Shown here: positions 3 to 53,300 of the stretch, one piece after another
How positions within the stretch are numbered: the stretch's first letter is position 1
How the letters are laid out: every line of letters begins with the position of its first letter
From: Crambe crambe
Lineage: Eukaryota > Porifera > Demospongiae > Poecilosclerida > Crambeidae
NCBI GenBank assembly: GCA_963924555.1
Contig: OZ004584.1
Span: forward strand, 7,501,001 to 7,565,000
DNA: 64,000 nucleotides
Reading direction: 5' to 3'
Program-made: the position numbers and the translations under genes
The notes under the pieces: generated by a model
The model's input: the letters and a program-made list of their open reading frames with translations, nothing else
What the model was told of the DNA's origin: nothing
Database searches by the model: none

Positions 3-743
3 TACTGGATCAGGTCCTCCAATGGCTCTGCTGTACGTGTGTACTGTGACACAAGGTCATGTGGTGGAGTCACTGGAGGGTGGATGAGAGTGGCTAGTCT
101 GGACTGGAGCAATGAATCTCTTCCATGTCCTGATGGATTCAGAGAACGCAGTGATTCAAACATCCGCACTTGTGGAATCAATTCCATATCAACTGGTTCA
201 TGTTCTTCTATAATCTTTGAAACATACAGCACTGTGTATAGTAGAGTCTGTGGCAAGATAAATGCTCATCAAGTTGGTAATCCCGATGCCTTTTCTAGAA
301 GTGATTCAAATATAAACATTGACTCTAATTACATGGATGGTGTTAGTCTTACACATGGAAGCAATCCTAGGGGACACATCTGGACTTTTGTTGCAGCAGT
401 TAATGATGAACCTGGTTTAATACGTTCAGATAGCCTCTGTCAGTGTGTGAGACCAGGTGATACGAGCATCATGGCCCCTCCTTCTTTTGTGGGAATGGAC
501 TACTTCTGCGATACAGGAAGTCGAAGTGGATCACATATTGGACAGTTTTACCCTAATGATCCCCTGTGGGATGGGGCTGGGTGTGCTTCTACTAGCACAT
601 GCTGTTCCTTCAATAACCCCCCGTGGTTCCACAAGCAACTCCCATCAGTCACCACTGACAATATAGAGATGAGGGTGTGTCGTGATGAGGGCAGAAGCAA
701 TGAAGACATCGCCATAACAAATATTGAACTTTATGTACAGTAG
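3..743 (+). CDS. Receptor A, fibrinogen-like ectodomain, 5' truncated by window edge
   Basis: The frame is open from base 3 to the stop at 743 and encodes only the C-terminal head of the array's receptor family. It starts inside the fibrinogen-like motif ([16 protein letters not shown]) and continues through [20 protein letters not shown] and the closing block [22 protein letters not shown] to the final LYVQ. It belongs to the W class of heads ([12 protein letters not shown]), shared with the loci at 24035 and 36631, and like them has no intron after HIWTF. Relative to paralogs one codon is missing (YCD-TRSC instead of YCDMTRSC), an in-frame 3-base deletion. The tail, membrane helix and stalk lie before the window. 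The head is presumably extracellular and ligand-binding by analogy with fibrinogen-related domains; the ligand is unknown. Confidence 0.8.
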   Translation, partial: YWIRSSNGSAVRVYCDTRSCGGVTGGWMRVASLDWSNESLPCPDGFRERSDSNIRTCGINSISTGSCSSIIFETYSTVYSRVCGKINAHQVGNPDAFSRSDSNINIDSNYMDGVSLTHGSNPRGHIWTFVAAVNDEPGLIRSDSLCQCVRPGDTSIMAPPSFVGMDYFCDTGSRSGSHIGQFYPNDPLWDGAGCASTSTCCSFNNPPWFHKQLPSVTTDNIEMRVCRDEGRSNEDIAITNIELYVQ

Positions 744-1944
744 TATTCTGAGATAAACATCATCTTCAACATAAATAGTCATTTAGAGACACTATATCAT
801 TATGGATTGAAACATACACCATTTTGGTTGTGTAAATTTTTAACTTCTTGCTGGTATGTGAGCTGGGTGTGGTTAACATGTACCGACACATTTTCGACCT
901 GGGAAACTGAAACATTGTATGAGGATTCTACATTGAGTCATCCATAGAGATTTAGGGTGGGAGAGCATGGATTGAAGTATGAATGCAATATGGAATATTA
1001 AATTCAATGGTGCACGGAGGCCCTGGAATGCTGGGGCATTTTAGTGCAGGAATAATCAGTGTATACCATGTAGGCATCTTTCTATTATGCTAATTTTTTT
1101 GCCTGTTTGACCCCATTATGCTCTAGATTGTGCCCATAATCTTACTGAAAAATCAAGGTTTTCTTCTTCACACACACACTTACTCACTAGCCTAATTGCA
1201 TGCATTCCAATGATACATGATTATAAATAAGGTTCATGAGATAACTAGATTGTTTACTTCCTTAACCTTAACGTTTGGAATCTATTTGCTAAAAAGAAAC
1301 AATTAACCCTAATAATAATTATGCCTGAAAATTCACCTATTATGCTAGCATTATGCCTGATGCTCAGGAGTACCTATCATACCTAAAATTATTCCGGCAT
1401 AATAGATACCAGACCCTTCCCCCCTCCAAAATAAGAAGGAAAAAAAAAGGAGTATGTAGCAAGTATGGTCATCTAGCTAGCTTAAGGCTATTGTACATTA
1501 ATTTTTCCTGAGTATGCACATCACCAATACTCAAATTATGTCATATGTCAGAGGTGGTGTGCTAGTGTAGGGCCACATCCACCCATACTGAGGGTGCATG
1601 TCGAAGTCAGTATGATGTAGCAATAAGTCTACCTATACACTGCAAAATGAAATTATTATTTTAACAAACTTGCTTAGGGCACAGGATTTATTATGTCTGA
1701 CGAACTACTGCTGAATGAATTTATAACTTGCAGTGTGTAGCCTGTCATAATGTGCAATATTAAAGTCACACTTGCAGTTATGAGAAACCATGGTCAACCG
1801 AGCCCCAAGTAAAGTTCTACACTGCAAAAACAGAATCATTATTTCAATTGTTAGGCAAGATTAATTATCGTTGAAATAACCAAACAGTTTGTTATATTCA
1901 CCAAAAATATAGTGTCATTTTGATTAATCTCACTTAACTTTGAT
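744..1944. other. Intergenic, dispersed repeats
   Basis: No gene seen. It holds pieces of dispersed repeats also found at 4.7-5.3 and 6.9-7.2 kb, and two partial copies of a MITE with the terminal motif CACTGCAAAA (near 1639 and 1822). The second copy is cut at about 1938 by the receptor relic that follows. Confidence 0.5.
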
Positions 1945-2041
1945 TTTGTGAATGGACTACTTCTGCAATACAGAAAGTCGAAGTGGAGAACAAAGTGGAC
2001 TTTTTTATCCCGTGGGATGAAGGGTGTGCTTCTACTAGCAT
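1945..2041 (+). pseudogene. Relic of a W-class receptor head
   Basis: About 95 bases match the stretch of the W-class receptor heads that encodes [13 protein letters not shown]...[12 protein letters not shown], with several substitutions and a small deletion around the DPLWDG codons. No flanking receptor sequence remains. It is a decayed fragment. Confidence 0.75.
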
Positions 2042-2464
2042 ATATTCATTTTTTGCTGCTCTGGTGCAAAAATTTCACTTCGAAATTAATATGAACAGTG
2101 TCTTATTATTATTAAGAGTTGATTTTTTAAAACATGAAATTCAATATTATCTGTATTTTCTTCCTGTTCCTGTATTTTGTATGTCACATGACACACACCC
2201 CTTATTAAGTAGCAACATCGTAAGCATCCTAAAAATAGGTCCAAATAAGGAAATGTCTGAAGTGTTTAGTTTTTAGTGACCTATTCTTGGCTAACACTTA
2301 GCTACATCACTCTTGCCTGAGACTATTATTATCATTATGCTGAGCCATCCAATGGAGGTGGATGGTATAGCTAATATGGCTCTTGAGGATTATATATTCC
2401 CATGGATCATGCAGAACGTTTACAACTATAGCCAATAAATTTTGTAAGAATATTACTGGTAAAG

Positions 2465-2993: not shown

Positions 2994-4442
2994 ATGAGTT
3001 CCAAATTTGTTGACAACACTGCCACTTACTCTGGGGTGGATGTGACTAAGAAGAAGACTCGTCTTGCTTCTAAGAAAGACAAGCCACCTAAAATACTCTC
3101 TGATATCCCCATGTATTCTGAGATCAATCAAGTGAGTGAGACATCTGCTCCAAGGAATGCTGATACTGCATTTGATAATCAAGTGTATTCCATGGGCACA
3201 TCAGACAACACGTATTCAAAGTTAAACAGAACAGTTGAACAGTCTCGTCAGGAAAATCCAGCAACTCCTCATGATAATGTGCTTGGGACTAAGACTGCCC
3301 CACACAAAGAGAAGTCAAAGAAAGATCAGCATGAAAGGAACTTAGTATGGATCATGATCAGTGTCAATATTCTGCTACTCCTTGTAGTGGGTATACTTGC
3401 TGTGGTTGCACTTATAAAATTGAATACCGAAATAGTCTCCCTCAGAGCATTACTTTCTAATTCCAGTGCTGTGCTGAGTCGAAATTTTTCAGCACTTGAG
3501 AATAAGTTGGATTCAAGAGTGAATGACCTTTATACCATACATTCGACTGGAAGGAACTCTGATAATCCTGCTATCTCATGTTCCCATATCTTGCTGTTGA
3601 ATTCCCCCTCTCCATCAGATCACTACTGGATCAGGTCCTCCAATGGCTCTGCTGTACGTGTGTACTGTGACATGACCAGGTTGTGTGGTGGAGTCACTGG
3701 AGGGTGGATGAGAGTGGTTAGCCTGGACATGAGAGACAATAGTAGCCAGTGTCCCAGTGATCTCAGGATGGCGATTCCTGGGAATAATTGTAATCCTGAA
3801 CCTAGAATATGTGAAATTGGTACAAATGCTGGTACTGGAAAATGTACTTCAAATAGTTACACTTCACATGGTTTTTACTATTCCCATGTATGTGGGATGA
3901 TCAGAGCCTATCAGTATAGGACAGTTGATGCATTTGCAGGTTGGACCAGACGAATGTCTGGCAATATAAACTCCAACTATGTTGATGGTGTGAGTCTGAC
4001 TCATGGAGTGCGCCCCTCAAGGAAGCACATTTGGACTTTTGCTGCAGGTACAAGAATTCTTGTGTGTATGTGTGTGTGTGTGTGTGTGTGTGTTGGGGGG
4101 GGGGGGGGGGGTAACTGGAAAAAGGATTGAAAAATGTGTATTCTTATATATTGTTGTACAGGTATGAGGGATTGTGACTTGAATCAACCTTCATTCGTTG
4201 AAAATAGTCATTTATTTTGTGGTGGAGTTGATGGTACAGTTGATAACTGTTATGAGGAATCTCTTCTATGGGATGGGGAGGACTGTTGGTCCACTGTGGA
4301 CTGCACTCGCAATGATCCTCCATGGTTCTACAGACAACTTCCAGAACTCACCTCTGACGACATAGAGATGAGAGTGTGTTGTGACCAACCTCACGATGAT
4401 GAAGACATTGGAATTGAAGCATTTGAAATTTACGTCCAGTGA
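2994..4442 (+). CDS. Receptor B: type II membrane protein with fibrinogen-like head, two exons
   Basis: Exon 1 is 2994-4047 and exon 2 is 4162-4442; joined phase 1 they encode about 444 residues. The start is the ATG of MSSKF, the conserved start of the class 1 tail. Residues 1-116 form a basic, Ser/Thr-rich cytoplasmic tail with tyrosine motifs at about Y12 (TYSGV), Y41 (MYSEI) and Y74 (TYSKL). Residues 117-141 are a single hydrophobic helix without a signal peptide, preceded by a Lys/Arg cluster, so type II topology is expected. A short stalk (142-190) leads to a fibrinogen-like head starting near C196 ([19 protein letters not shown]). The donor is GCAG/GTACAA and the acceptor TTGTACAG. The intron holds a GT microsatellite and a G run. 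Exon 2 supplies the conserved [19 protein letters not shown] block. Compared with paralogs, TYSEV has become TYSGV. The function is unknown; I infer a recognition receptor. Confidence 0.85.
4070..4111 (+). repeat. GT microsatellite and G run in the receptor B intron
   Basis: A (GT)n tract is followed by about 20 consecutive G. Both lie inside the 114-base intron. Confidence 0.85.
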
Positions 4443-5627
4443 TGAACAAGGGAGTGGATGATGATCAATGGACATTACATTTCAATCATTAATTTATAAG
4501 AAAGTTCATTCACAATAGCTTAATACACACACTTCTTATTATAGCTACTGCCTCATTATTATTATGTATAGCTAGCCATGTGTGGTTATTTTATTTTTCA
4601 TAATAGCATCAAATATGGAATGGAGAATGTACTTGGAACAGATCATGAAACAGAGAATGGAATAAAGTAGGGAATGGATTGTAGAACAGAGTATGAAATG
4701 GACTGTATGTATGGAATTATGCATCTGAAGCCATCATCATAGGTAGTGTGCATATATTCAGGTAGCCAAATATTAATATTGCATTATTACAGTCTGTTTA
4801 TGGGCATATGTCAGGTAGGCTTATTGCCACACCCACTGACATGCCCCAAAGTGAGTCTGGCTTTTTGGCTTCTACACTAGTATAGTACACACTGACACTT
4901 GACATTGAATATTGCTCAATAGAGGTGTAGCTAGACACTTTGCTACACCCACTGATACTGAGGGCATGTCAGCAACAAGCCTAGATCTCTACTTGGAACT
5001 TGATTGACCCATGGTCTCTCATAACTGCAAGTGTGTGACTTTAATATTGTACATAATGACCATTCAGCAGAATGGTCGGATTATAAATCCTGGACCCACT
5101 AAGTGGATATTTGTACATATATATACACACTGCAAAAATAGAATTGTTATTTCATTAAACATAACTGTTAATTAAGACTAATCATTGTTGAAACAACCAA
5201 ACAGTTTGTTATATTCACCGAAAATATAGTGTCATTTTGACAGATTTCAAATGATTAACCTCACCTAACTAAGTAGGTTTATTAAAATACCAATTTCGTT
5301 TTTGCAGTGCATCAGCATTCAACAGGACACCAGTATACACATTCATGACTGTGAATATGATGTCATTGTTAATTCTCTAATATAGTTATTCCATAAAGTG
5401 CACTTTGCCTAAAATTATAGTTAAATGGCCTCACTTTAAATATAGTTTTGGTATTATAGAGTTGGTTCTACATGACTATCCACCCAGTTAGTGTTAGTTT
5501 TTGTGATGAGACTAAAAAGTATTCTACTTAGCTAAATTAATGTAGTTAGTTTCTATATGATTGTAGCCTGCAGTCTTCTGCACTAAGTCCTTTCATGTCT
5601 AGCTACTCTGTTTGAGTGGTCACAAAA
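4443..5627. other. Intergenic, dispersed repeats
   Basis: No gene seen. The stretch 4745-4870 recurs in inverted orientation at 6890-7010, and 4905-5100 recurs in direct orientation at 7030-7200. A MITE occupies 5127-5311. Confidence 0.55.
5127..5311. mobile_element. MITE with CACTGCAAAAA termini
   Basis: The element of about 185 bp starts with ACTGCAAAAATAGAA and ends with the inverse (TTTCGTTTTTGCAGTG). Related partial copies occur at 1639 and 1822. There is no coding capacity. Confidence 0.6.
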
Positions 5628-6027
5628 ATGAGTTCCGAGTTCGATGTTAACAAAGATGATCAACCTGAAATACTCTCTGATATATTCCTGTATACTCTGA
5701 AGTCAATCCAAAGAGGGAGTCATCCCCTCCTCATGTGGAAACATTTGAGAATCAAGCTTACTCCATCAATACACTCATGAACACACATTCAAAGTCACCT
5801 CATCAGCCAAATCCAGCAACTCATCATGATACTCTGATGATCCCCTGTGGGAAGGGATGGGGCTGGGTGTGCTTCTACTAGCATGTGCTGTTCCTAATAA
5901 CTCCCCAAGGTTCCACAAACAACTTCCATCAGCCACCACTGACGACATAGAGATAAGGGCATGTCATGATGAAAGCAGACACAATGAAGATATTGCCATA
6001 TCAAATGTTGAACTTTATGTACAGTAG
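5628..6027 (+). pseudogene. Receptor C: internally deleted pseudogene
   Basis: It starts with an ATG and a class 2-like tail ([18 protein letters not shown]). A one-base disruption in the YSEI motif region shifts the frame. At about 5835 the sequence jumps directly to the end of a W-class head ([30 protein letters not shown], stop). Membrane helix, stalk and most of the head are gone. It combines a class 2 tail with a W-class head, a pairing not seen in the intact genes here. Confidence 0.85.
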
Positions 6028-6717: not shown

Positions 6718-6743
6718 AGCAACGGTTGCTATAGTCTAAATAA

Positions 6744-8962: not shown

Positions 8963-10335
8963 ATGAGTTCCCAGTTTAATGCCAACGACAATGATCAAGA
9001 TACTTATGTCTATTCTGAAATCAATCCAAACAGGGAGTCATCACCTCCACATGTGGAAACATTTCAAAATCAAGCTTACTCCATCAATAAACTGGTGAAT
9101 ACTGACAAGGTGTTTGGGACTAAGACTACTCCATGCAAAGAGAAGTCAAAGAATAACCAGTGTGAAAGGAACTTAGTATGTATCGTGATCAGTGTTATTA
9201 TCCTGCTACTCCTTGCAGTGGGTGCAGTTGCTGTGGCCGCACTTGTCCAAGTTTCAAAAAAGAATTTGGAAATGGTCTCCAATAACTCATCACTACTACG
9301 TGCAGAACTTTCAAAGTTGAATGATGAAATAGTCTCCCTCAGAGCATCACTCTCAAATTCCAGTGCTGTGTTGAGTCGAAAATTTTCAGCACTTGAGACT
9401 AAGACACAAATTCAATTTGATGGGTTGAATTCAAGAGTGGATTACCTTTATACCTTACATTCAAATGAAACGAATACGAATATTAACCCCGCTGCTTCAT
9501 GTTCCCTCATCTTGCAGTTGAATTCCTCCTCTCCATCAGGTCACTACTGGATCAGGTCCTCCAATGGCTCTGTTGTACGTGTATACTGTGACATGACCAG
9601 GTCATGTGGTGGAGTCACTGGAGGGTGGACGAGAGTGGCTAGTCTGGACAGGAGAGATAACAGTAGCCAATGTCCCAGTGGTCTAAGGACGGGGAGTGAT
9701 TGCAACCCTGAACCAACATGTGTACTTGACATAGACCCCCGAACTGGAAATTGTTCTTCAAATAGTTACACTTCACACGGTCTTAACTATTCTCATGTAT
9801 GTGGGATGATCAGAGGTTATCAAGTTAGGAACCTCGATGCATTTAGAAACAGGAATCCTATCGATATAAACTCCAACTACGTTGATGGAGTGAGTCTGAC
9901 TCATGGAGTGCCTCCCTTGAGGCAACACATTTGGACTTTTGCTGCTGTTGGTACTTCAGGTAAATCTTAATGCATTTATTAGTGGGGAAGCAGATAAATT
10001 CTTATTCCTTGAAAGACTCATTAGCTCTTGTATTCTTATAAACTGCAGGTGCACACCATTGTGACAACAATATACCTTCATTTATTGAGACCAGTCATTT
10101 ATTCTGTGGTAGAATTAATGGCCAACGCAATGCTGGTGGCTGCTATACGCAAGCACCTCAATGGGACGGAGAGGGCTGTGGGTCCAGAGATGATTGCACT
10201 CGCAATGATCCTCCATGGTTCTACAGACGACTTCCAGAACTCACCTCTGACGACGTTGAGATGAGAGTGTGTCGTGACAATATTCTAGGGGACGAAGACG
10301 TCGCAATTCAAGCATTCGAAATTTATGTCCAGTGA
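8963..10335 (+). CDS. Receptor D: type II membrane protein with fibrinogen-like head, two exons
   Basis: Exon 1 is 8963-9959 (donor CTTCAG/GTAAAT) and exon 2 is 10049-10335 (acceptor AACTGCAG), joined in phase 1 for about 427 residues. The tail is the short class 2 form ([20 protein letters not shown]), about 70 residues, with tyrosine motifs at Y15/Y17 (YVYSEI) and Y39. The membrane helix is about 71-95. The stalk contains [20 protein letters not shown], heptad-like and with glycosylation sequons. The head has the QCPSGL form, with [15 protein letters not shown] and WTFAAVGTSG before the intron. Exon 2 carries an unusual insertion (GQRNAGGCYTQAPQWDGEGC). The whole locus with about 0.9 kb of upstream DNA is duplicated at 27.2-28.9 kb, where its 3' half has been replaced (receptor J). 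Confidence 0.85.
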
Positions 10336-11211: not shown

Positions 11212-12537
11212 ATGAGCTCTGAATTTGATGAGATTATCTCCACCTATGATTCGGTGATTTGCACAGTGACAAAGAAGAGTCATTCTGCCACTAATGAGCA
11301 TGATACATCCTTCAACATTCCTGAATATTCTGAAATAAACCAAGAGAGTCCTTCACGTGTGAATACTTTTGAAAATCAAGCGTACTCCATTGCTACACCA
11401 AACACACATGCTGAGTTAACTGCCCCACACAAAGAGAAGTCAAAGAAAGACCAGTGTGAAAGGAAATTAGTATGGATTGTGATCAGTGCTAATATCTTGC
11501 TACTTCTCGCAGTGGGTGCACTTGCTGTGGCCGCACTTATTCAATTTACTCAACTGGAGAATGAGACTCAAAATAAATTTAATAAGTTAGCTGGTCTACA
11601 CTCAAGTTTTCCTGCCATTTCTTGTGCTGCTATTCTCCAGTTTGCTCCCTCATCCCCATCAGGTCACTACTGGATCAGGTCCTCCAATGGCTCTGCTGTG
11701 TATGTGTACTGTGACATGACCAGGTCGTGTGGTGGAGTTACTGGAGGGTGGATGAGAGTGGCTAGTCTGGACATGAGAAACAGCAGTAGCCAGTGTCCCA
11801 GTGGTCTCAGGCAGGGGGATAGTTGCAATCCTGAACCAACATGTGAAATTGGTACAAACTCTCTAAGTGGAAATTGTTCTTCAAATAGTTACACTTCACA
11901 TGGTCTTAACTATTCCCATGTATGTGGGATGATCAGAGCCTATCAGTTTGGGTCACCTGATTCATTTGGTCATGATGGAAGACAGATGCCTCTCAATATA
12001 AGCTCCAACTACGTTGATGGTGTGAGTCTGACTCATGGAGTGCCTCACTCAAGGAAGCACATTTGGACCTTTGCAGCAGGTCTTTCAGGTAGATCTATTT
12101 TATACTGTATAAGAGTTAAGTATCAGAGGAAATATTCATGTGTAATTTTCATGGATTGATGCCATTGAAGCATGAACAATACAAAATCCACAAAATTTAA
12201 TAATTATTATTTTCCCTCACTAATCATGTGGAGTATTAATTTAATATCTAATTCCATAGGGATGGAGAACTGTAGCTTTAATCAACCTCAGTTTGTCAAA
12301 AGCAGTCATTTATTCTGTGGTGGAAGAAATCTTACAAAAGACTGTTATGAGGAATCTCCTCTATGGGATGGGGAGGACTGTGGGTCCAATGGGGATTGCA
12401 CTCTCAATGATCCTCCATGGTTCTACAGACGACTACCAGAACTCACCTCTGATGACATAGAGATGAGAGTGTGTTGTGACCAACCTCACGAAGATGAAGA
12501 CATCGGAATTCAAGCATTTGAAATTTACATCCAGTGA
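11212..12537 (+). CDS. Receptor E: type II membrane protein with short stalk, two exons
   Basis: Exon 1 is 11212-12088 (donor TTTCAG/GTAGAT) and exon 2 is 12260-12537 (acceptor TTCCATAG), phase 1, about 384 residues, the shortest intact member. The class 3 tail (MSSEFDEIIS) has STYDSV at Y12, which fits the strict ITIM consensus S-x-Y-x-x-V, and PEYSEI at Y39. The membrane helix is about 87-110. The stalk is only about 25 residues (FTQLENETQNKFNKLAGL) before [19 protein letters not shown], the head start also used by F, R and S. The head continues [18 protein letters not shown]. Its exon 1 end, intron and exon 2 are nearly identical to those of receptor J. If the first donor fails, reading runs into the intron and ends within about 25 residues. 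Confidence 0.85.
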
Positions 12538-16805: not shown

Positions 16806-17294
16806 ACGAGTTCTAAGTTTGCTGACAACACTGCCACTTACTCTGAGGTGGATGCGACTAAGAAGAAGACTCGTCTTGCTGCTAAGAAAGATAAACAACC
16901 TGAAATACTCTCCGATATTCTCATATATTCCGAGATCAATCAAGTGAGTGAGACATCTGCTCCAAGGAATGCTGATACTGCATTTGATAATCAAGTGTAT
17001 TCCATGGACACATCAGACAACACATACTCAAAGTTAAACACTACAGTTGAACAGTCTCATCAGGCAAATCCAGCAACTCCTCATGACAATGTGTTTGGGA
17101 CTAAGACTGCCCCAAGCGAAGAGAAGTCAAAGAAAGACCAGTGTGAAAGGAACTTAGTCTGGATTGTAATCAGTGTTATTATCCTGCTACTCCTTGCAAT
17201 GGGTGCAGTTGCTGTGGCCGTACTTGTCCAAGTTTCAATATTGAATATGGAAATGGGTTCCATTGTACGGAATGGGTTCCATTGTACGGAATGA
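16806..17294 (+). pseudogene. Receptor G: start codon lost, truncated after the membrane helix
   Basis: The sequence follows the class 1 tail codon for codon, but the start is ACG (16806-16808) where the near-identical locus at 49849 has ATG. The tail (TYSEV, IYSEI, TYSKL) and membrane helix are intact. After EMGSI the frame runs into a duplicated GAATGGGTTCCATTGTACG and stops. No stalk or head follows. Confidence 0.85.
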
Positions 17295-18029: not shown

Positions 18030-18054
18030 TCAATTATTATACAACTTTACTGTA

Positions 18055-18103
<49 letters not shown>

Positions 18104-21556: not shown

Positions 21557-21587
<31 letters not shown>

Positions 21588-38300: not shown

Positions 38301-41300
38301 TGTCTCATAATATCATGAGAATATTATGCATTTGATAATCAAGTGTATTCCATGGACACATCAGAGAACATGTATTCAATGTTAAACAGAACAGTTGAAC
38401 AGTCTCATCAGACAAATCCAGCAACTCCTCATGACAAGGTGCTTGGGACTAAGACTGCCCCAAGCAAAGAGAAGTCAAAGAAAGACCAGTGTGAAAGGAA
38501 CTTAGTATGGATCATGATCAGTGTCAATATCCTGCTACTCCTTGCAGTGGGTGCAGTTGCTGTGGTTGCACTTGTCCAAGTTTCAAAATTGAATACCGAA
38601 ATAGTTTCCTTCAGAATATCACCCCCTCTTGCAGAAGATTCGAAATTGAATGATGATGTAGTCTTCCTCAGAGCATCTCTCTCAAATACTAGCACTTTGC
38701 TGAATAATGAAATAGTTTCCCTTGGAGCATCATTCTCAAATTCCAGTGCTGTGTTGAGTCAAAATTTTTCATCATTTGAGAATAAGACACAGATTCAATT
38801 AGATAGATTGGATTCAAGAGTGAATGACCTTTATACCATACATTTGACTGGAAGGAACTCTGGTAATCCATAAACCACCTGTAATGTTCTCAGATATCCA
38901 CATGTATTCCGAGATCAATCCAATGAGTGAAACATCTGCTCTGATACTGCATTTGATAATCAAGTGTATTCCATGGGCACATCAGACAACATGTAACTAT
39001 TCAATGTTAAACAGAACAGTTGAACAGTCTCGTCAGGCAAATCCAGCAACTCCTCATGACAATGTGCTTGGTACTAAGACTGCCCCACACAAAGAGAAAT
39101 CAAAGAAAGACCAGTGTGAAAGGAACTTAGTATGATGATCAGTGTTAATATCCTGTTACTCCTTGCAGTGGGTGCAGTTGCTGTGGCCACACTTGTCCAA
39201 GTTTCAAAAACGAATATTATTTAGAAATAGTTTCTATCAGAGCATCACTCAGTCTCAGACTGGCAGAAGATTCAAAGTTGAACGATCAAATAGTTTCCCT
39301 CAGAGCATCACTCTCAGATTCCAATGTTATGCTGAGTCAAAATTTTTCAGCACTTGAGAAAAGGTTTGAACAGTTTGAGTCCAGAGTGGGTGATCTTTAT
39401 AGCACACGTTTCATTGGAAGGAATTCAGATAATCTTGCTGCTTACTGTTCCCATGTCTTGCTGTTGAATTCTTCCTCCCCATCAGGTCACTACTGGATCA
39501 GGTCCTCCAATGGCTCTGCTGTGCGTGTGTATTGTGATATGACCAGGTCATGTGGTGGAGTCACTGGAGGGTGGATGAGAGTGGCTAGTCTGGATATGAG
39601 AGACAACAGTAGCCAGTGTCCCAGTGGTCTCAGGCAGGGGGATAGTTGCAATCCTGAACCAACATGTGAAATTGGCACAAACTCTCCAACTGGAAATTGT
39701 TCTTCAAATAGTTACACTTCACATGGTCTTCACTATTCCCATGTATGTGGGATGATCAGAGCCTATCATTTTAGGACACTTGATGGATTTGGTACTCATG
39801 GAAGACAGACGCCTCTCAATATAAGCTCCAACTACGTTGATGGTGTGAGTCTGACTCATGGAATGTCTCACTCAAGGAAGCACCTTTGGACCTTTGTGGC
39901 AGGTCTTCCAGGTAGATCCATTTATACTGTATAAGAGTTAAGTATCAGAGGAAATATTCACGTGTGATTTTTGTGGATTGATGCCATTGAAGCATAAACA
40001 ATACAAAATCCACAAATATTTTCTTATTATTGTTTCCTATAATTATTCTCATGAGATTCTCTAATCATGTGGAGTATTATATCTAATTCCATAGGGATGA
40101 TGAACTGTAGGTTTAATCAACCTCAGTTTGTTGAAAGCAGTCATTTATTCTGTGGTGGAAGAAAAGGTGTAAATCACTGTTATAAGGAATCTCCTCTATG
40201 GGATGGGGAAGACTGTGGATCCAATGTGGAATGCACTCTCGATGATCCTCCATGGTTCTACAGACGACTTCCAGAACTCACCTCTGACGACATAGAGATG
40301 AGAGTGTGTTGTGACCAACCTCATGATGATGAAGACATCGCAATTCAAGCATTTGAAATTTATGTCCAGTGAAAATTGGCAATGACCCATGCATATTAGT
40401 TGTAGTGAGACCTTTTGTACTAGGTACTGTTGTACTTGTGTGGTAATATGTAATCATGTAGTTAGCTATTAGTGATGTCATGTTATGTCATGTTGTATCA
40501 CGGGACTTGAATTATATACCATACGCTGTGTGTGTGCTTTCTCTATTATATCATAGAAAGTTTTACGCATAATTTTCTTTGATGTAATGAGGTCACTATA
40601 TAGCATAATGCATCAAATTACAGTGGTCAAGTATCTAAATGACATTAATAGTGACTCGTCACTATTTTGAAAAATAGAGACCTGCTTAGTAAAAATAGAG
40701 ACCTGCAAGACATGCATGAGTAAACAGTTATTGCAGAGAACCAGAAAAGTTACAAAAACAACAACAACAACAAAAAAAAAGAAATATGAATATCTGAATG
40801 GCAATTGGAATAAAATGGATAGCTCTAGAGATGGTGAACAAGTTACTAGCTTAGCTGAACTCTTAAGGCTGTTGATTCCAGGCTAATCACCAAGGCATCT
40901 TTATCACCACCGCCTTATTGGACTTGCCCATCACATTCAAGTGTGGGTTTAGAAGCTAGCATTGTAGAAAGATCAAGACTTTGACCTACCTGAATCAGAG
41001 AAGCTTGTTGTTATAAATCTTGAACAGCCCAATATTTTACTACGAGCTCAGCTAAGCTAAAACTTGTTCAGCATCTCTAGAACTGTAAATTTTCTATGCA
41101 GGTTAGTGACCAGTATAGACATCTACTCGGTTTCGAAACCTCGTGGTGGTCGGGCAGTGAATGATGCAATAGTCACCTTGGCTCTGCCTTGGTGACTATT
41201 GCATCATGCACTCACAGCCCTCCCACTTGGTTTCTAAAACCTCGTGGATGTCTATACTAGGTCACTAACCTAGACTTAATTAATCTACTGAGTAATTCCC

Positions 41301-44300
41301 TAATACTACATGGTGGCAGCGGTTATCAAACCTCTACAAACAATATTTCTAAGATGTCAAGATCGCCAACCCCAACTCCTGTAACAGTGGACCCCCTAAC
41401 AGTCAGGCCTAAGACTGACCATGTGATGATAACCACAACCTATCAAGTAGCACCTCCCGAGCCTTTAGCTTTAAGCCAGATGAGTGGCCAAAGTGGATAA
41501 ATCGTTTTGAACGATTCAGGAAAGCGTCCGGGTTGGATACCAAAGATGAGGAAGCACAGGTCAATACTCTCATATATTCAATGGGTGACAAGGCCAATGA
41601 CATTTTCCGATCGCTAAATTTATCTGAGGATGATAAGAAAGCATACGAACAAGTAAAGGAAAAATTTGACTGTCATTTTGTGAAAGAAAAAAAAAAGAAA
41701 TGTAATCTATGAGAGAGCAAAGTTTAACATGAGGAAACAAGAAAGAGGTGAAGGAGTCGATTTCTCCATCACTGCATTGTATGCTCTGGCAGAACACTGC
41801 ACATATGGTGTCCTCCATGATGAGATGATCAGAGACAGATTAGTGGTGGGGATATAAGCAATGCCAAGTTATCAGAAAAATTGCAGTTGGACCCCTCACT
41901 GACATTGGAAAAAGCCATCACACAAGCAAGACACATCAGCAACAATCTCTAGTTGGAGGGAAAGCATTAGAAGTACCTGACCTCCCTATTGGAGCTATCC
42001 AAAGGAGAAAAAGCTATTTCCAGAAAGAGCAGTTTTGATGCAAGTACAGAACTCCGGAGAGCAGAAGCCAGTGGCATACATATCCAGATCAATGTCTCAA
42101 ACAGAACAATGTTATGCTCAGATAGAAAAAGAAGCATTGGCCTTCACCTGGGCATGTGAGCGTTTTGCAGAATATCTGAAGTTTCATATTCAAACTGATC
42201 ACAAACCATTAGTATACGAAGAGTTTGGAAGAACTTCCTGTTCGAGTACAACGATTTCGACTTCGTATGTTATATGATTTCAGTATCTCTCATGAACCAG
42301 GAAAGAATCTCACAATAGCTGATATTTTGTCACGAGCTCCAACGGGACAACCTCAAACAAAAGACGAGGAACTCCAACAAGAAGCGAGAGTTTTTGTCAA
42401 TTTTGTCATCGAGAGTTTACCAGCTACTGAACAGAAATTGGATGAGATCAAGCAATGTCAAAAAGATGACCAAGAATACCAGCAGATAGTGCTGTATTGC
42501 CAACAAGGTTGGCCGGAGAAGAAAGAACTCACACGAAAACTTCGACAGTACTATCCAGTAGCTGCGGAGATATCAGTTGTAGAGGACCTACTGATGTGTG
42601 GGAGCAGGATAATCATTCCTTCCTCAATGCGTGAAGATATCCTCAAAAAGATACATGTTGGCCATCAAGGCATAACGAAGTGCAGAGAACTTGCTCGACA
42701 ATCTGTTTGGTGGCCAGGCATATCCTTGGACCTCGAAGAATTAGTCAAAGAATGTGAAAAATGTTGTATTTCACAGAAACCACGTGATCAGCCATTGATG
42801 CCATCAAAATTGCCGAGTCTGCCATGGCAGAAAGTTGCAACCGACCTATTCGAGTTCAAACAAAGATCGTATTTGTTAGTAGTTGACTACTACTCCCGAT
42901 TCATAGAGATTGCTCTCCTGAATGGCACTTCAGCAGATACAGTCATCCAACACACTAAAAGCATTTTTGCTAGATATGGCATCCCAGAAGTCGTCATATC
43001 TGATAATGGACCACAATTCAGTTTAGAAGCTTATCGAAAGTTTTCCAACAATTATCAATTTAAACACATTACTAGCAGCCCTTACTATCCAAGAAGTAAT
43101 GGAGAAGCAGAATGAGCCATTGCAACTTATTGAAAAAAGAGGATGACCCATATTTAGCTCTGTTAGCATACAGGTCAACACCACTTCAGAATGGATACAG
43201 TCCATCGGAATTATTGATGTGCAGAAAACTAAAATCTCTCATTCCAATCACAAGAGAACAGCTAATGCCAACCATACCGGATCTTACATCACTGAGGATT
43301 CGAGACAAAAAGATTAAAGAAAGACAAGAGAAATTTTGATGATCATCATGGTGTGAGAAACAGCTCTCAGTTAAACCCTGGAGACAGAGTTTGGATTCAA
43401 GATCAGAGAGTATCTGCACAAGTCAACACCGAAGTAGCCCCACGATCTTATGAAGTATCTACTTCGAATGGCAGCATTGTAAGAAGAAACAGAAAGGATT
43501 TAATTCCATTGCCATTATCATTACAAGAGAATAGTGATGAGAGTTCAGACGAATTGGATCAAGAACTACTAGAAGTCCCAGAAGTTGATCCATCTGACTC
43601 AGAACCAGCTGTTGAGATTACAGAGCCAACTACACTTGCAACAAATACTCAATCAGAGACAACTGAACTCCAAGCTGACCCTCCTACGTAGGAGCACACG
43701 AATCCGCCATCCTCCTCAATATTACGATTCAAGTTGGACTTGAAGAGGGGAGATGTAGTGAGACCTTTTGTACTATGTACTGTTGTACTTGTGTGGTAAT
43801 ATGTAATCATGTAGTTAGCTATTAGCTATTAGTGATGTCATGTTATGTCATGTTGTATCACAGGACTTGAGTTATATACCATATGCTGTGTGTGTGCTTT
43901 CTCTATTATATCTTAATGAGTAATTGCCTAATACTTAGTCCCAAGCACATCATCATGAAGAGTTGCTGGATTTGCCTGACGAGACTGTTCAACTATTGTG
44001 TTTGACTTTGAATGTGCGTTCACCAGTGTATTGATGGAGTAAGCTTGATTTTCAAATGTTTCCACATGAGGAGGGGATGACTCCCTCTTTGGATTGATTT
44101 CATAATATGCAGGACTATTGGAGAGTATTTCAGGCTGGTTGTCTTCGTTAGCATCAAACTCAGAACTCATTTTGTGCAACCACTTGAACCTCTAGTGTGA
44201 GACTAGATACAAAAGGACAAATTATGTAGCTATAGGTTTGATAGATCAATGAATGCAGACTACAATCTCATAGAAGCTAGCAAAGTAGAATACTTGGAGT

Positions 44301-47300
44301 CCTGCAACTTTGAAGCTAGAAACTCAGCACTCCATTATCATTGGACACACTGACATTAACTATTTATGGGCAAACTTGAGCGGTTGAGTGTTATGTAAAG
44401 AGATAGAATTGTTTCCCAATAGGATTTAGTCATAGCAGCTACATCTTACTGTTTCATGCTTATGTAGAAGCTTTTAGAACTTTAGTTATCTATATAGCTA
44501 AGGTCACTAATGTGTTTGTTGTTACTATTCAAAATCCTAATTAATAGAGATGAGAGTGTGTTGTGACCAACCTCACAAGGACGAAGACGTTGCAATTCAA
44601 GCATTTGAAATTTACGTCCAGTGAAAATTGGCAATGACCCATGCATATTAATTACATGTATTATTTGTAGACATTGGTGTTGAGACAAACATCTTCTTCA
44701 CTATTGGCAATTAGTCATTTAATTATTGTGTGTTAGTCTATCACTATCATTGGTCATTCGTTGAGGTAGCAATTAATCAACTTAAAAGAAAAAAGTTAAC
44801 TTAAAAGAAAAAAAAGTAGTAATATGTCATTTGTGTGACTAAATACCTGCAGTCTGTCCATTACATAATAACTCTATCTCAATGTGATCTATTTATTTGT
44901 TGTCATTTTGCATGTTTATGTAGAAGCTTTTAGGACTTTAGTTATCTATAGCTAAGGTCACTAATGTGTTTGTTGTTACTATTCAAAATCCAATTCTATC
45001 TCTTTGCAGAACACTCAACCTCTCAAGTTTGCCCATAATAATTAATGTCAGTGTGTCCAATGATAATGGAGCGCTGAGTTTCTAGCCTCAAAGTTGCAGG
45101 ACTCTAAGTTTCCTACTTCACTAGCTTCTATGAGATTGTAGCCTGCTATCAACCCATAGCTTCATACTTTGCCCTTTTGTATCTACTCTCACACTAGAGG
45201 TTTAAGTGGTTGCACAAAATGAGTTCTGAGTTTGATGTTAATGAAGACAAACAGCCTGAAATACTCTCCAATAGTCCTGCATATTATGAAATCAATCCAA
45301 AGAGGGAGTCACATGGAAATATTTGAAAATCAAGCTCACTCACTGGTGAATACACATTCAAAGTCAAACACTACAGTTGAACAGTCTCGTCAGGCAAATC
45401 CAGCAACTCTTAATGATGATGTGCTTGGGACTAAGACTGCCCCACATAAAGAGAAGAAAGACAAGTGTGAAAGGAACTTAGTATCATCCTGCTACTCCTT
45501 GCAGTGGGTGGAGTTACTGTGATTATGCTTTTGAAAGTTTCACAATTGAATTCTGAAATAGTCTCAATCAAAGCATCCACATTATACTCAAGCAAAGTTT
45601 CAGCAATTGAGAGTCAAACTAGAGCACTACTTCAGAATTTCAGTGATAAGTTGGAGATGAAACTGTTTTCAGCTATAGAGAATGAAACTATGATGTTTAA
45701 TGCGGAACTAGAAAATAAGTTAGCTGGTCTACACTCAAGTTTTCTTGCAGTTCCTTGTGCTGCTATTCTCCAGTTCGCTCCCTTTTCTCCACCAGGTCAC
45801 TACTGGATCAGGTCCTCCAATGGCTCTGCTGTACGTGTGTACTGTGACATGACCAGGTCAGGTACACTGGAGGGCGGATGAGAGTGGCTAGTCTGGACAT
45901 GAGAGACAGCAGCCAGTGTCCCAGTGGTCTCAGGGCAGGGGGTGATTGCAATCCTGAAAGAACATGTGAAATTGGTACAAGCTCTCCAACTGGAAAATGT
46001 TCTTCAAATAGTTATACACTTCACATGGTCTTCACTATTCCCATGTATGTGGGATGATCAGAGGCTATCAGTATGAGACACCCGATGCATTAGGTAATCA
46101 TGGAAGTCTGACTCATGGAGTGCTCCCTTTGAGGCAGCTGGTCTTTCAGGTACCATAATATTTCTTATTCCTTGAACCCCCCTCCCAATATATGTTACTA
46201 TCTTGTGGTATATTCCGACTACAAGTTCAGGGGATTGTGACACTAATCGACCTTCATTTGTTGAAAGCAGTCATTTTTTTCTGTGATGGAGTACATGGTG
46301 GCGGCTGCTCTAGGGCTGTGGGTCCAGAGATGATTGCACTTGCAATCATCCTCCATGGTTCTACAGACGACTTCCAGAATTCACCACTGACGACATAGAG
46401 ATGAGAGTGTGTTTTGACCAACCTCACAATGATGAAGACATCGCAATTCAAGTATTTGAAATTTACGTCCAGTAGAAATTGGCAATGCATGAATGTACAT
46501 TAACAATCACAAGTAGTTACATGTAGTGAGTTCTTGTAGACATTACTAACATTATTACATGTTATTATAGCAACACATACAGTTTTAATGTAGTAATTTC
46601 CTGGAAGTGATAAATTAGCACAATCCCACTGCCTTATATTAAAAAGTTGGAACAGTAACTACCTTTAACACATCACCATGCATTATTGTCAACATGAAGA
46701 TTTTACAGTATATTTTCTGTAAGTCACATGTCACTGTGTGTAAATAGTGCGTATAAATTAACATGAAAATTGTAAACATGAATTATTATCCAACAAAAAT
46801 TTCCCAATTTATGCAACCAAGTAAGTCCCAATAAAGAAATGTTATAGTCTCTAACTTGTTGTTGTCTGATAATCACCTTTTAGTGATCTAACCTTCTAAC
46901 CTGCACACAGAGGCCGAATTTGAGTCAGAGTGACTATAAACTAACAAGCACAAAGAAATGAGCTCCAAGTTTGCTGATAGTACTGCCACTTACTCTGAGG
47001 TGGATGTGACTAAGAAGAAGACTCGTCTTGCTGCTAAAAAAGACAAACCACCTGAAATGCTCTCTGATATCCCCATGCATTCCGAGATCAATCAAGTGAG
47101 TGAGACATCTGCTCCAAGGAATGCTGATACTGCATTTGATAATCAAGTGTATTCCATGGGCACATCAGACAACACGTATTCAGTGTTAAACAGAACAGTT
47201 GAACAGTCTCGTCAGGCAAATCCAGCAACTCCTCATGACAATGTGCTTGGGACTAAGACTGCCCCACACAAAGAGAAGTCAAAGAAAGACCAGTGTGAAA

Positions 47301-50300
47301 GGAACTTAGTATGGATCGTGATCAGTGTTATTATCCTGCTACTCCTTGCAATGGGTGCAGTGGCTGTAATTACGCTTTTGCAAGTTTCAAAATTGAATTC
47401 TGAAATAGCTTCAATCGAAGCATCCACATTATACTCCAGCAAAGTTTCAGCAATCGAGAGTCAAACTAGAGCACTACTTCAGAATTTCAGTGATGAGTTG
47501 GAGATGAAACTGTTTTCAGCTATAGAGAATGAGACTATGATGTTTAATCAGAGATATCTGGAACTAGAAAATAAGTTAGCTAGTCTACACTCAAGTTTTC
47601 TTGCAGTTTCTTGTGCTGCTATTCTCCAGTTTGCTCCCTTTTCTCCATCAGGTCACTACAGGATCAGGTCCTCTAATGGCTCTGCTGTGCGTGTGTATTG
47701 TGACATGACCAGGTCGTGTGGTAACATCACTGGAGGGTGGATGAGAGTGGCTAGTCTGGACATGAGAGATAACAGTAGCCAGTGTCCCAGTGGTCTCAGG
47801 CAGGGAGATAGTTGCAATCCTGAACCAACATGTGAAATTGGTACAAACTCTACAAGTGGAAATTGTTCTTCAAATAGTTACATTTCTCATGGTCTTCACT
47901 ATTCCCATGTATGTGGGATGATCAGAGCCTATCAGTTTAAGACACCCGATGCATTTGCTCATCATGATGGAAGACAGATGCCTCTCAATATAAGCTCCAA
48001 CTACGTTGATGGTGTGAGTCTGACTCATGGAACGCCTTGCTCAAGGAAGCACATTTGGACTTTCGTGGCAGGTCTTTCAGGTAGATCTATTTATACTGTA
48101 AGAGTCAAGTATCAGAAGAAATATTCATGGGTAATTTTCGTGGATTGAGCATGAATAATACAAATATTTTCCCTCACGAATTATTATCGTTTCCTATAAT
48201 TATAGTAATTATCATCACAAGTGAGCACAAAAAATGGTGAAGTAGGGACAGCAAAAAAATTTAGCTCTATTATTACTATTCCTAGCCCTCCTAATTTCAA
48301 TAACCACACCTATATCACACAACTTATTAAATCCCTACTTCACTCTCCTTTATATCTAATTCCATAGGGATGAAGAACTGTAGCTTTAATCAACCTCAGT
48401 TTGTTGAAAGCAGTCATTTATTCTGTGGTGGAAGAAACAGTACAAATGACTGTTATGAGGGATCTCCTCTATGGGACGGGGAAGACTGTGGATCCAATGT
48501 GGATTGCACTCTCAATGATCCTCCATGGTTCTACAGACAACTTCCAGAACTCACCTCTGATGACATAGAGATGAGAGTGTGTTGTGACCAAGATCATGAT
48601 GATGAAGACATCGCAATTCAAGCATTTGAAATTTATATCCAGTAAAAATTCAAAGAGAGCTCGCAATCACCAAGAATATTTTGATATTATAGTTTCACAC
48701 ACGCACACAAGAATATTTCTATAAGTCATATACTTGTGGTCATATTATGTGTCATTAGCTACTCAATATAAAGAGCATCAAGATAGTTTATGTGTAGCTC
48801 CCTATACATTGTGGAAAGTATGGAATGGACAGAGTATGAATTGAGTATGGAAATGGAGTATATTTTACATGGGTTGCTATTTGAGTACATACACTCTCAA
48901 TACTCAATGTCAAGGTAGAAAGCACTTTACAAGTGTAGCAAGCACTCAAATGTAGAGCCACACACCCCATATTGAGGTGAGGAGGCCATGGTCTATACAG
49001 TCTCTTGTACAGCTAATGGCCATAGCAACCACATTATCTCCTACATCCTTCAACAGGACACAAGTAGTCTGTACACATTCACAATGACTATGATGCTATA
49101 CGTTCCTCAACATACTCCATTAAGTGCACTCAGTCTATTATGGCCTGATTTGCATTCTAAAATGAAAGTGTTTATCACTCTATACCTTTGCTGTCATTAA
49201 CTCTTGTAAACTGTTGACTGGGAGCATGGTATAAAGTATACACATGTTTAGTCTGTGTACCGTTGGAGTTTAGTGTTTTGGGACTTGAATTAGTTGCATG
49301 TGACTACCCATGCAATGATATTGGTGAAAAGTAATGGTGATATTTTAGTGGTAATGGAGCACTGAAATTCTGCTAAAAAGTCCCAATAGTTGTAAGTCTA
49401 TAAGTATCTTCCTTATATAAGCTAGATTACTGTAGATTACTGTTCTATCCATGGATAAAATGCTGAGCCAATGATGGAGACTGAGGATTAATTGCTTATA
49501 GCTTTGCAGTAAACGCAAGCAACAATTATTTCCATTGGTTTTCTGAAACTAAATGAAAGAGAGTATGAATAGCTTGTTATTGCTTAGCACAATGAAATTT
49601 AATTATTAATTGAACAGTCTTCTACATCCTGTAAGTCACATGTACTGTATGTACTACTGCATAGTATGCATGTATAGAGTTAGCTAGTCTAATGGTCTAA
49701 TGTAACCAGTGAAGTTTATGAAACTGAAAGTAGATAGCAGGAAATGCTTCTGTTTGAATAACCTCCTATGTAGATATTTTAGTGATCTAACCTACACATA
49801 AAGGTTGATATAGTCACATGCAGTGACTACACTCGCAAGCACAAAGAAATGAGTTCTAAGTTTGCTGATACTACTGCCACTTACTCTGTAGTGGATGTGA
49901 CTAAGAAGAAGACTCGTCTTGCTGCTAAGAAAGACAAACCACCTGAAATACTCTCTGATATTCCCATGTATTCTGAGATCAATCAAGTGAGTGAGGCATC
50001 TGCTCCAAGGAATGCTGATACTGCATTTGATAATCAAGTGTATTCCATGGACACATCAGACAACACATATTCACTGTTAAACAGAACAGTTGAACAGTCT
50101 AGCCAGGAAAACCCAGCGACTCCTCGTGACAATATGCTTTGGACTAAGACTGCCCCACACAAAGAGAAGTCAAAGAAAGACCAGTGTGAAAGGAACTTAG
50201 TATGGATCGTAATCAGTGTTAATATCCTGCTACTCTTTATAGTGGGTGTACTTGCTGTGGCTGCACTTGTCCAAGTTTCAAAATTGAAAGATAAAACAGT

Positions 50301-53300
50301 TCCCATCAAAGAATCCATTTCGTGCTCAAATAGAGTTTCAGTTCTTGAAGGTAAAACTGAATCACTACTTCAGAATTTTACTCAATTAGTGGAAACAACT
50401 CAAAATAGAATCATAAATGAAACTATGACTTCAAATCAGCAATATCTTGAACTAGAAAACAAGTTAGCTGGTCTACACTCAAGTTTTCTTGCAGTTTCTT
50501 GTGCTACTATTCTCCAGTTTGCTCCCTTTTCTCCATCGGGTCACTACTGGATCAGGTCCTCCAATGGCTCTGCTGTGCATGTGTACTGTGACATGACCAG
50601 GTCGTGTGGTGGAGTCACTGGAGGGTGGATGAGAGTGGCTAGTCTGGACATGAGAGACAACAGTAACCAGTGTCCCAGTGGTCTCAGGCAGGGGGATAGT
50701 TGCACTTCTGAACCAACATGTGAAATTGGTACAAACTCTGAAACTGGAAAATGTTCTTCAAATAGTTACACTTCACATGGTCTTCACTATTCCCATGTAT
50801 GTGGGATGATCAGAGCTTATCAGTATAGGACACCCGATGGATTTAGAAACAGAGGGAACAGAGAGATGCCTCTCGATATTGACTCCAACTATGTTGATGG
50901 TGTGAGTCTGACTCATGGAATGCCTCACTCAAGGAAGCACATTTGGACTTTTGCTGCTGATCACTCAGGTACATCATAAAGTACATCACCACATAGCAGG
51001 AAATTTATGTGGGGGAATTATAATCAAAGTGGGAACCATACTGAAAGCCACAAAGTCCACAAAATAGTTTCCTCTATAGTAATGTGTTACAATCATACCG
51101 AATACTTTACAGGTGTGCAGAGTTGTTACAATAATCAACCTCCATTTCTCAATGCCAGTCATACATTTTGCGGTGGAATGAACTCTGCATACGGCTGCTC
51201 TAACCCTCCTTCATGGGATGGGGAAGACTGTGAATCCAATGTGGATTGCACTCGATGGTTTTACAGACAACTTCCGAAACTCACCTCTGATGACATAGAG
51301 ATGAGAGTGTGTTGTAACCAACATCACTGGGATGAAGACATCAGAATTCAAGCATTTGAATTTTACGTCCAGTGAAAATTGGCACTTCCCCATGCATGCA
51401 TGAATGTACATCAACAATCAGAATTAGTTACATGTAATGAGTTGTTGTAGACATTACTATCATTATTATACAGTTTGAATGAATCAACATTATTAAATTA
51501 GCACAATAATTGGAACAGCTACAACCTTTAACATAAATGACCATTATTTCAATATGAAGTGTACTTCCTATCATGTCACTGTATGTACACAGTGCAATTA
51601 CAGTTAGCTAGTCTAATGGTCTAATGTAAACAGTGAAGTGAAGCTTATAACACTGTAAATAGATGAATAAGGAAATTAATGTTAATTGTTTCTGTTTGAA
51701 TACCTCCTATGGTGATCTAACTTACAGAGGTTGATAGAGCCAAATTTAAGTCACATGTGACTATACACTTGCAAGTACAAAGAAATGAGTTCCAAGTTTG
51801 CTGACAACACTGCCACTTACTCTGAGGTGGATGTGACTAAGAAGAAGACTTATCTTGCTGCTAAGAAAGACAAACAACCTGAAATACTCTCCGATATTCC
51901 CATGTATTCCGAGATCAATCAAGTGAGTGAGACATCTGCTCCAAGGAATGCTGATACTGCATTTGATAATCAAGTGTATTCTATGGGCACATCAGATAAC
52001 ACATACTCAATGTTAAACAGAACAGTTGAACAGTCTCGTCAGGCAAATCCAGCAACTCCTCATGACAATGTGCTTGGGACTAAGACTGCCCCAAGCGAAG
52101 AGAAGTCAAAGAAAGACCAGTGTGAAAGGAACTTAGTCTGGATTGTGATCAGTGTTATTATCCTACTACTCCTTGCAGTGGGTGCAGTTGCTGTGACCAC
52201 ACTTATCCAAGTTTCAAAATCGAATACTGAAATGGGTTCCATCAGAGCATCACTCCGTCTTGCACTCAATGAAATTGTCTCCCTCAAAGCATCACTCCGT
52301 CTCGCACTTGCAGAAAATTCGAAAATTGAAGCATCAATTTCAAATTCCAGTGCTGTGCTGAGTCAAGATTTTTCATCACTTGAGAATAAGACACAGATTC
52401 AAACAGATAGGTTGGATTCAAGAGTGAATGACCTTTATACCTTACATTTGACTGGAAGGAACTCTGATAATCCTGCTACTTCATGTTCCCATGTCTTGCA
52501 GTTGAATTCCCCCTCCCCATCAGGTCACTACTGGATCAGGTCCTCCAATGGCTCTGCTATACGTGTGTACTGTGACACGACCAGGCCTTCAAATAGTTAC
52601 ACTTCACATAGTCTTAACTATTCCCATGTATGTGGGATGATCAGAGCCTAACGAGTTAGGACCCTCGATGGATTTAGAGGCAATAACAGAGGGGATATAA
52701 ACTCCAACTATGTTGATGGTGTGAGTCTGACTCATGGAGTACCTCCCTTGAGGCAGCACATTTGGACTTTTGCTGCTGATCACTCAGGTACATCATAAAA
52801 TAAAATAGCTACACTAGGCACAATATGGGAACCATAAATTTTCTAGAAAGCCACAAAGTCCACAAAACATTTCCTTTATTGTAATGTCACAATCATACCA
52901 TGTATGGAATACTTTACAATGATCACCCTCCATTTCTTAATGTCAGTCATTTATTTTGCGGTAGTCATGATTGCTCTGATGACTCTCCTTTATGGGATGA
53001 TCCTCCATGGTTCTACAGACAACTTCCAGAACTCACCTTTGATGATATAGAGATGAGAGTGTGTCGTGACCAACCTCACAATGATGAAGACATCGCAATT
53101 CAAGCATTTGAAATTTACGTCCAGTGAAAATTGGCAATGCATGAATGTACATTAACAATCACAAGTAGTTACATGTAGTGAGTTCTTGCAGACATTATTA
53201 CATTATAGAACTGTATTATAGCAACACATACATAGTTTTAATGCAATAATTTACAATGAATTCCTGGAAGTGAACCAACATTATTGAATTAGCACCAAAA

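Follow-up and report, generated by a model that had tools for sequence, protein, structure and literature searches.

How sponges discriminate between food, symbionts, pathogens and other sponges is an open question, and it is the question raised by a 64,000-nucleotide stretch of the Crambe crambe genome (hereafter the window), which probably lies on chromosome 4 of the assembly odCraCram1.1, judging from excerpts of PMC12166358. Translated searches with three proteins of the window revealed a receptor array of 20 units or relics between positions 3 and 53127. On balance, we favor the reading that this family consists of haplotype-variable, multigene type II endocytic or phagocytic recognition receptors with a FIBCD1-like layout and a CED-1-like tail logic; by comparison with known receptors, they may aid the sponge in sensing microbes or foreign cells, or in taking them up. 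We found no description of the family in open-licence papers.

A tandem array of predicted type II receptor genes

The translated-search matches were grouped by hand into 20 units, 19 of which lie on the plus strand; the exception is one relic, u15. Eight units (u2, u4, u5, u6, u9, u11, u18 and u19) are intact from ATG to stop, and the other 12 were not scored intact, although two of them (u1 and u12) are open frames. This agrees with the initial annotation, made from the window alone, which had counted at least twenty copies or relics, eight of them intact. The span that it gave, 3..53127, holds within the window but is not the limit of the array, which continues upstream; within the 20 kb read there, more copies, some open and some broken, reach at least position -12582. 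The units are as follows.

3..743, plus strand: u1, stalk end and long-type head; the gene start lies outside the window, with an open frame from about -756; the first Met stands just before PVYSEIN, with no ATG at the usual place
2994..4442, plus strand: u2, intact receptor with short-type head; predicted intron 4048-4161
5598..6024, plus strand: u3, relic with shifted frames, retaining parts of the tail and the end of the head
8963..10335, plus strand: u4, intact receptor; predicted intron 9960-10048
11212..12537, plus strand: u5, intact receptor with one strict ITIM-like STYDSV in the tail; predicted intron 12089-12259
13697..14953, plus strand: u6, intact and intronless, 418 residues; tail with FENPAY (NPxY) and STYDSV; among the homologues listed, the identical protein occurs on two contigs, the longest of 2013234 bases
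16797..17282, plus strand: u7, truncated copy, tail to stalk start
23438..23588, plus strand: u8, relic of the membrane-helix region
24035..25729, plus strand: u9, intact and intronless, long-type head
24209..24466, plus strand: two tandem tail modules of u9, about 43 residues each, with FDNQVY (NxxY) and TYSKL (YxxPhi) in each; the spacing is 43 residues and the end was set from the module length
26848..27174, plus strand: u10, truncated copy, tail alone
28105..29556, plus strand: u11, intact receptor; predicted intron 29111-29281
28923..28938, plus strand: recombination breakpoint of u11, from a permutation test
36595..38082, plus strand: u12, open frame with long-type head, lacking an ATG at the usual position
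38328..38894, plus strand: u13, partial copy, tail to stalk
38869..40372, plus strand: u14, broken tail, stalk and head open
43934..44188, minus strand: u15, tail relic in reverse orientation
44544..44621, plus strand: u16, head-end relic
45268..46472, plus strand: u17, copy with shifted frames
46958..48645, plus strand: u18, intact receptor; predicted intron 48081-48367
49849..51375, plus strand: u19, intact receptor; predicted intron 50969-51112
51773..53127, plus strand: u20, broken copy, shortened head and shifted frames

In each of the eight intact genes, an N-terminal tail of 70 to 162 residues is followed by a hydrophobic membrane helix, a stalk and a C-terminal head. The initial annotation had ascribed this layout to all copies; several relics lack the tail or the head, and the full layout is therefore shown by the intact copies only. 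The 21-residue membrane helices of these eight genes contain no charged residue, and inspection by eye revealed no hydrophobic stretch N-terminal to them. Six of the genes have one predicted phase-1 GT-AG intron at a corresponding position in the head (a few codons earlier in u2 than in the other five), as judged from the genomic sequence, and u6 and u9 are intronless.

The type II topology proposed earlier was borne out as a prediction, with a single N-terminal anchor helix and a C-terminal head in all eight intact genes and a more positive N side in most homologues that have the helix. Among the best 120 homologues listed, 93 have a strong hydrophobic helix preceding the head, and Lys and Arg in the 12 residues flanking this helix are more numerous on the N side in 77, fewer in 2 and equal in 14. 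The other 27 lack such a helix in the predicted frame, which in several of the sequences read begins inside the stalk. Hydrophobic periodicity, pooled over nine stalks, peaks at 3.6 residues and next at 3.5, and at 3.5 three of the nine stalks exceed 95% of their own shuffles, so the stalk probably forms an amphipathic helix, with a heptad coiled coil left unproven.

The array that had been described does exist, but it is not isolated. On the window's own contig, C6, the head occurs at about 1.2, 1.5-1.65, 3.4, 4.8, 5.4-5.6, 6.2-6.5 and 7.5 Mb, and it is also found on contigs C1, C3, C5, C8, C9, C12, C15 and C17; two genome searches gave at least 131 and at least 143 head stretches (95 of 689 and 86 of 692 candidates scored, respectively). 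Of twelve loci read outside the array, nine carry some other in-frame tyrosine tail (for example, TYELP, QYEIP, VYDDV, NECY or IYVQV), and three carry none.

Tyrosine motifs of the tails and their candidate readers

Motifs were counted in the 89 homologue tails of at least 30 residues, of which 43 were left once similar tails had been removed, and were compared with shuffled sequences. YxxPhi, taken from the initial annotation of the window, occurs 162 times in the 89 tails against 57.5 ± 7.0 in shuffles (largest of 2000, 87) and 77 times in the 43 nonredundant tails against 28.7 ± 4.7 (largest of 2000, 46). The description of the tails as rich in YxxI/V/L thus stands but is incomplete, as a second motif, NxxY, is also present: 94 occurrences in the 89 tails against 26.6 ± 4.8 (largest of 1000, 43) and 47 in the 43 tails against 13.3 ± 3.4 (largest of 2000, 28). 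YxxPhi is found in 40 of the 43 nonredundant tails, NxxY in 32 and both in 30. Three sub-patterns occur in more of the 89 tails than expected, namely, N[PQ]xY in 38 (2.2 expected), NxCY in 24 (0.4 expected) and Y[SAED][EDVI][VIL] in 50 (3.6 expected); NPxY proper is present in 12. Since NxxY and the sub-patterns were picked after the same tails had been read, their counts are descriptive and do not constitute a test.

The stalks of 75 proteins have no excess of either motif (YxxPhi, 37 against 36.1 in shuffles; NxxY, 15 against 11.7). In the heads NxxY is likewise not in excess (38 against 44.0), and the excess of YxxPhi there (212 against 126.8) is put down to fixed positions in a shared domain. 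The tyrosine columns of ten genes of the window have identities of 1.0, 0.9, 1.0 and 0.625, compared with a mean of 0.74 over 100 tail columns. Tail modules number from one to four: the FDNQVY and TYSKL module is present twice in u9, three times in homologue P0015 (one of these lacking the YxxPhi part) and four times in the gene at position -12582; the counts for P0015 and for the upstream gene were made by eye. Three further patterns counted in the 89 tails were not used: YxN (19 against 27.2 in shuffles, no excess), YxxP (27 against 17.3 ± 4.0) and [DE]xxxL[LI] (0 against 3.8). Two homologues, P0020 and P0043, have two partial head starts per chain behind a YSEI/NQVY tail resembling those of the window genes.

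Candidate readers for both motifs are encoded in the genome, which has 135 SH2 matches and 8 PTB exon matches; a locus on contig C18, in which a tyrosine phosphatase is preceded by two SH2 domains, is of the SHP type by domain order. Arrays of SH2 matches were also seen at C5:1468041-1522148, where, in the stretch read, paired SH2 domains precede Kelch repeats on the minus strand; these proteins are possibly adaptors that read tyrosine tails. Further SH2 clusters lie on C9 (1.49-1.61 Mb) and C12 (1.75-1.84 Mb), and scoring of 150 of 601 candidates gave at least 183 tyrosine phosphatase exon stretches, often in clusters, on C12, C9 and C13.

With YxxPhi and NxxY combined, we judge the tails to be closer to those of engulfment or endocytic receptors than to those of natural killer (NK)-type receptors. 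The motifs and their candidate readers are present, and from these we infer how the receptors might function. The stalk would hold the receptor as an oligomer, and the head would bind a surface ligand, for which glycans on microbes or particles met by a filter feeder are the likeliest candidates. Clustering of heads by the ligand would allow Src-type kinases to phosphorylate the YxxPhi tyrosines, which would then be bound by SH2 proteins (adaptors or SHP), and NxxY would recruit PTB or clathrin adaptors, leading to uptake of the bound material. Turnover of the array by unequal exchange could supply new combinations of head and tail. In the sections of PMC6208332 consulted, sponge Fibrinogen_C genes respond to microbial molecules, and in those of PMC8242945, sponge receptor expression is specific to the individual; these passages concern genes other than the present family. 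A term search of the main text of PMC12345144, on sponge and vibrio proteomics, found neither fibrinogen nor ITIM.

More tentatively, we propose that sponges possess a large, haplotype-variable type II repertoire of their own. By modular exchange, a procollagen/fibrinogen-like head would be combined anew with tails of one to four YxxPhi/NxxY modules, giving each animal its own set of uptake and signaling receptors, and the same loci may also serve self/non-self recognition between sponges. The locus offers eight intact genes and a tail code that predicts reader proteins, and the haplotype difference described below lends itself to genotyping alongside graft outcome or the uptake of microbes.

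Haplotype difference, recombination and selection

The array could be compared between two contigs by means of a neighboring gene.

55693..59427, plus strand: flanking gene outside the array, open frame of 1244 residues, used as haplotype anchor

Homologue P0121, on a contig of 2013234 bases, is identical to the product of this gene at 1226 of 1233 residues (99.4%), and this contig is therefore likely to carry the same locus; we take it to be the same project's alternate haplotype, although it could come from another individual. Of the 120 homologues listed, 11 lie on it, a lower bound for the second haplotype. One of these has the same sequence as u6 and another shares 97% identity with u11, and the other nine have best whole-protein partners in the primary region that are about 67 to 86% identical, in alignments that may cross introns. 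Compared with the whole primary genome, P0003 reaches 74% identity over its full length, up to 84% over 150 to 230 residues and 91 to 92% over short tail modules. Given a flanking gene that is 99.4% identical and array genes that mostly do not match, the gene content of the array appears to differ between haplotypes. The comparison of haplotypes proposed with the initial annotation thus yielded a strong difference in gene content between two contigs that share the flanking gene.

The array also shows fast turnover. The nearest neighbor switches along a gene: the tail of u18 groups with u2, its stalk and the first part of its head with u6 and the remaining head with u11, and in P0007 and P0009, the tail is nearest to one primary gene and the stalk and head to another. 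On its informative sites, u11 is a clear chimera, matching u4 at 178 of 181 sites to the left of positions 28923-28938 and u5 at 136 of 163 to the right, a split that none of 5000 permutations reached; at the final sites, near the gene end, similarity returns towards u4. These patterns indicate that array units exchange tail, stalk and head segments and, together with the relics, uphold the earlier picture of a tandem array that recombines and decays.

Pooled over pairs of ten genes, the ratio of nonsynonymous to synonymous substitution rates (dN/dS) is 0.49 for the tail, 0.50 for the membrane helix, 0.54 for the stalk and 0.40 for the head, and ranges from 0.35 to 0.54 across six segments. 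No pair out of 45 exceeds 1 over the whole head or the whole gene; in single segments, values above 1 were obtained for 8 of 44 pairs in the membrane helix, 2 of 41 in the stalk and 1 of 30 in the mid-head. Positive selection on the heads was thus not seen by pairwise dN/dS, which has little power for single sites and would miss them.

These findings bear on allorecognition, in which variable heads would be read between touching sponges and the tails would set fusion or rejection. Differing gene content beside a near-identical flanking gene would suit such a role, as would the mosaic genes (u11, P0007 and P0009), and graft specificity and repeatability in Amphimedon point to a polymorphic genetic system, according to the passages of PMC5450542 on grafting. 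The heads do not, however, show the excess of amino acid change, within the limits of the pairwise method, and many clusters bearing the same head are more in keeping with a repertoire than with a single compatibility locus; moreover, a term search of the main text of the same Amphimedon paper (PMC5450542) found no fibrinogen, receptor or ITIM. As the principal role of the family, we therefore regard allorecognition as unlikely.

The head domain and a possible matrix function

The head had been called fibrinogen-like, a description that profile searches upheld in part. The NCBIfam model NF040941 (Fibrinogen-like YCDxxxxGGGW domain) scored above its cut-off in all three window proteins searched (33.9-36.6 bits against 30), with the fibrinogen-like similarity confined to the first ~70 residues of the head, but Pfam Fibrinogen_C (PF00147) gave no match in these proteins at E values up to 1. 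Across the genome, PF00147 has 81 matches, none of them on C6, and with this partial similarity we rejected a plain fibrinogen domain for the cluster. Clusters of canonical Fibrinogen_C genes lie apart from the array family at C5:989188-1054476 and C19:1235232-1259483 and on C8, C9 and C18.

COLFI (PF01410) scored below the Pfam cut-off in all three window proteins (19.6-24.0 bits against 26.2). It matched 37 of 72 aligned members of the family at E values up to 0.01 (best, 6.1e-24), more than any other Pfam family, so the wider family is nearer to COLFI than the window proteins are. Searches with the head profile matched intelectin-1 (8.9e-7) and procollagen (4.8e-4); the intelectin alignment covers only ~70-90 residues of the head, and intelectin structures stood at ranks 18 and 28, mixed with other folds. 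For structure prediction, which the initial annotation had also proposed, AlphaFold models of two heads were built from alignments of 71 and 74 of the 120 listed homologues, with predicted local distance difference test (pLDDT) values of 85.8 and 89.1, and procollagen C-propeptides headed both Foldseek lists, at low scores. Matches to Cry toxin domains, reelin, meprin and carbohydrate modules (VIA rows), as well as a Foldseek match to influenza hemagglutinin, were read as common beta-sandwich resemblance. The tail and stalk of u12 gave a sub-threshold match (E 0.5) to Lectin_N, a family that covers the N part of hepatic lectins and not their lectin domain.

A head related to the procollagen C-propeptide might trimerize and bind matrix, and NxxY, which is also a motif of integrin beta tails, might connect the receptor to the cytoskeleton in an integrin-like manner. 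For such adhesion or matrix receptors speak the Foldseek and COLFI results; rapid turnover, decay and haplotype difference would be unusual in a structural matrix receptor, and we consider this explanation quite unlikely.

Unlikely alternatives: NK-type signaling and neutral decay

A further parallel might be sought in NK-type inhibitory receptors, whose immunoreceptor tyrosine-based inhibitory motifs (ITIMs) would act through an SHP phosphatase. The type II layout, the tandem array, the YxxPhi tails and the SHP-type locus in the genome are consistent with this. The strict ITIM pattern, [SIVLT]xYxx[ILV], is found in 32 of the 89 homologue tails against 14.2 in shuffles (largest of 500, 25), but among the intact window genes just u5 and u6 have it and the other six do not. 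NxxY, which to our knowledge is not part of the NK receptor scheme, is nearly as widespread in the nonredundant tails as YxxPhi. In the tails of the eight intact genes, the spacing of immunoreceptor tyrosine-based activation motifs (ITAMs) was not seen, their helices are uncharged, and Pfam gave no C-type-lectin domain at E values up to 1 in the three window proteins. We therefore rejected the ITIM/ITAM reading for the window genes, and the likeness to NK receptors that had first been proposed for this locus is improbable as an account of function.

Functionless amplification decaying neutrally, to which the 12 of 20 units not scored intact might point (two of these being open frames), is very improbable in view of the pooled dN/dS in all six segments, the conserved tyrosine columns, the open frames and predicted splice sites retained in eight genes and the relatives on other contigs whose tails are of the same type.

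Other features of the window

The flanking gene has one match to the Chlam_PMP repeat above the cut-off (22.8 against 20.6 bits), a C-terminal part that looks polytopic by eye and 16 further relatives at 24-35% identity. Positions 30341-34024 resemble a DNA transposon, in which the minus strand encodes a protein with THAP and DDE_Tnp_4 and the plus strand has a frame for a YqaJ-type exonuclease, and the frames at 42213-43691 resemble a retroelement integrase region by eye. Two short collagen-like frames, alike by eye, lie at 61068-61838 and 63633-63998, the first with a Collagen match below the cut-off.

Comparison with known systems

FIBCD1 consists of a short cytoplasmic tail, a membrane helix, a coiled-coil region and a C-terminal fibrinogen-like head and mediates endocytosis (PMC3908420, in part); it has been termed a type II transmembrane endocytic receptor (abstract of PMC9994688). 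The predicted sponge receptors have the same order of parts. The FIBCD1 domain, however, is akin to that of ficolins, and its short tail has two potential phosphorylation sites (PMC3908420, same sections), whereas the sponge family forms a multigene array with a divergent head and several YxxPhi and NxxY motifs per tail.

The tail logic recalls CED-1, grouped here with Draper and MEGF10, whose tail pairs NPXY, a PTB motif, with YXXL, an SH2 motif; their possible counterparts NxxY and YxxPhi are found together in 30 of 43 sponge tails, although NPxY proper is present in only 12 of 89. CED-1 is a type I receptor with an EGF-type ectodomain and is not known to be encoded in a large array. We do not claim membership in the FIBCD1 or CED-1 family, as the sponge head departs from a canonical fibrinogen domain and CED-1 has type I topology. 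In CED-1, NPXY recruits the PTB adaptor CED-6, and phosphorylated YXXL recruits the SH2 adaptor NCK-1 (passages of PMC9388098).

The first ~70-90 residues of the sponge head align with intelectin. Placozoan intelectin-like proteins, according to the relevant part of PMC6321704, likewise align with vertebrate intelectins at the N terminus only; they are clustered and mostly predicted to be secreted, and, unlike the sponge receptors, they have no membrane helix or tyrosine tail. COLFI is the closest Pfam family and fold neighbor of the sponge head, but the sponge receptors are transmembrane proteins without a triple helix, and the three window proteins score under the Pfam cut-off.

The Ly49 and NKG2 receptors of vertebrates share with the sponge array the type II orientation, the stalk, the tyrosine tail and a tandem cluster that duplicates and decays. 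They differ in having a C-type-lectin-like head and ITIM or adaptor pairing, neither of which is found in most window genes. If the endocytic or phagocytic reading favored here is true, clustered type II signaling receptors arose in sponges separately from the vertebrate NK clusters.

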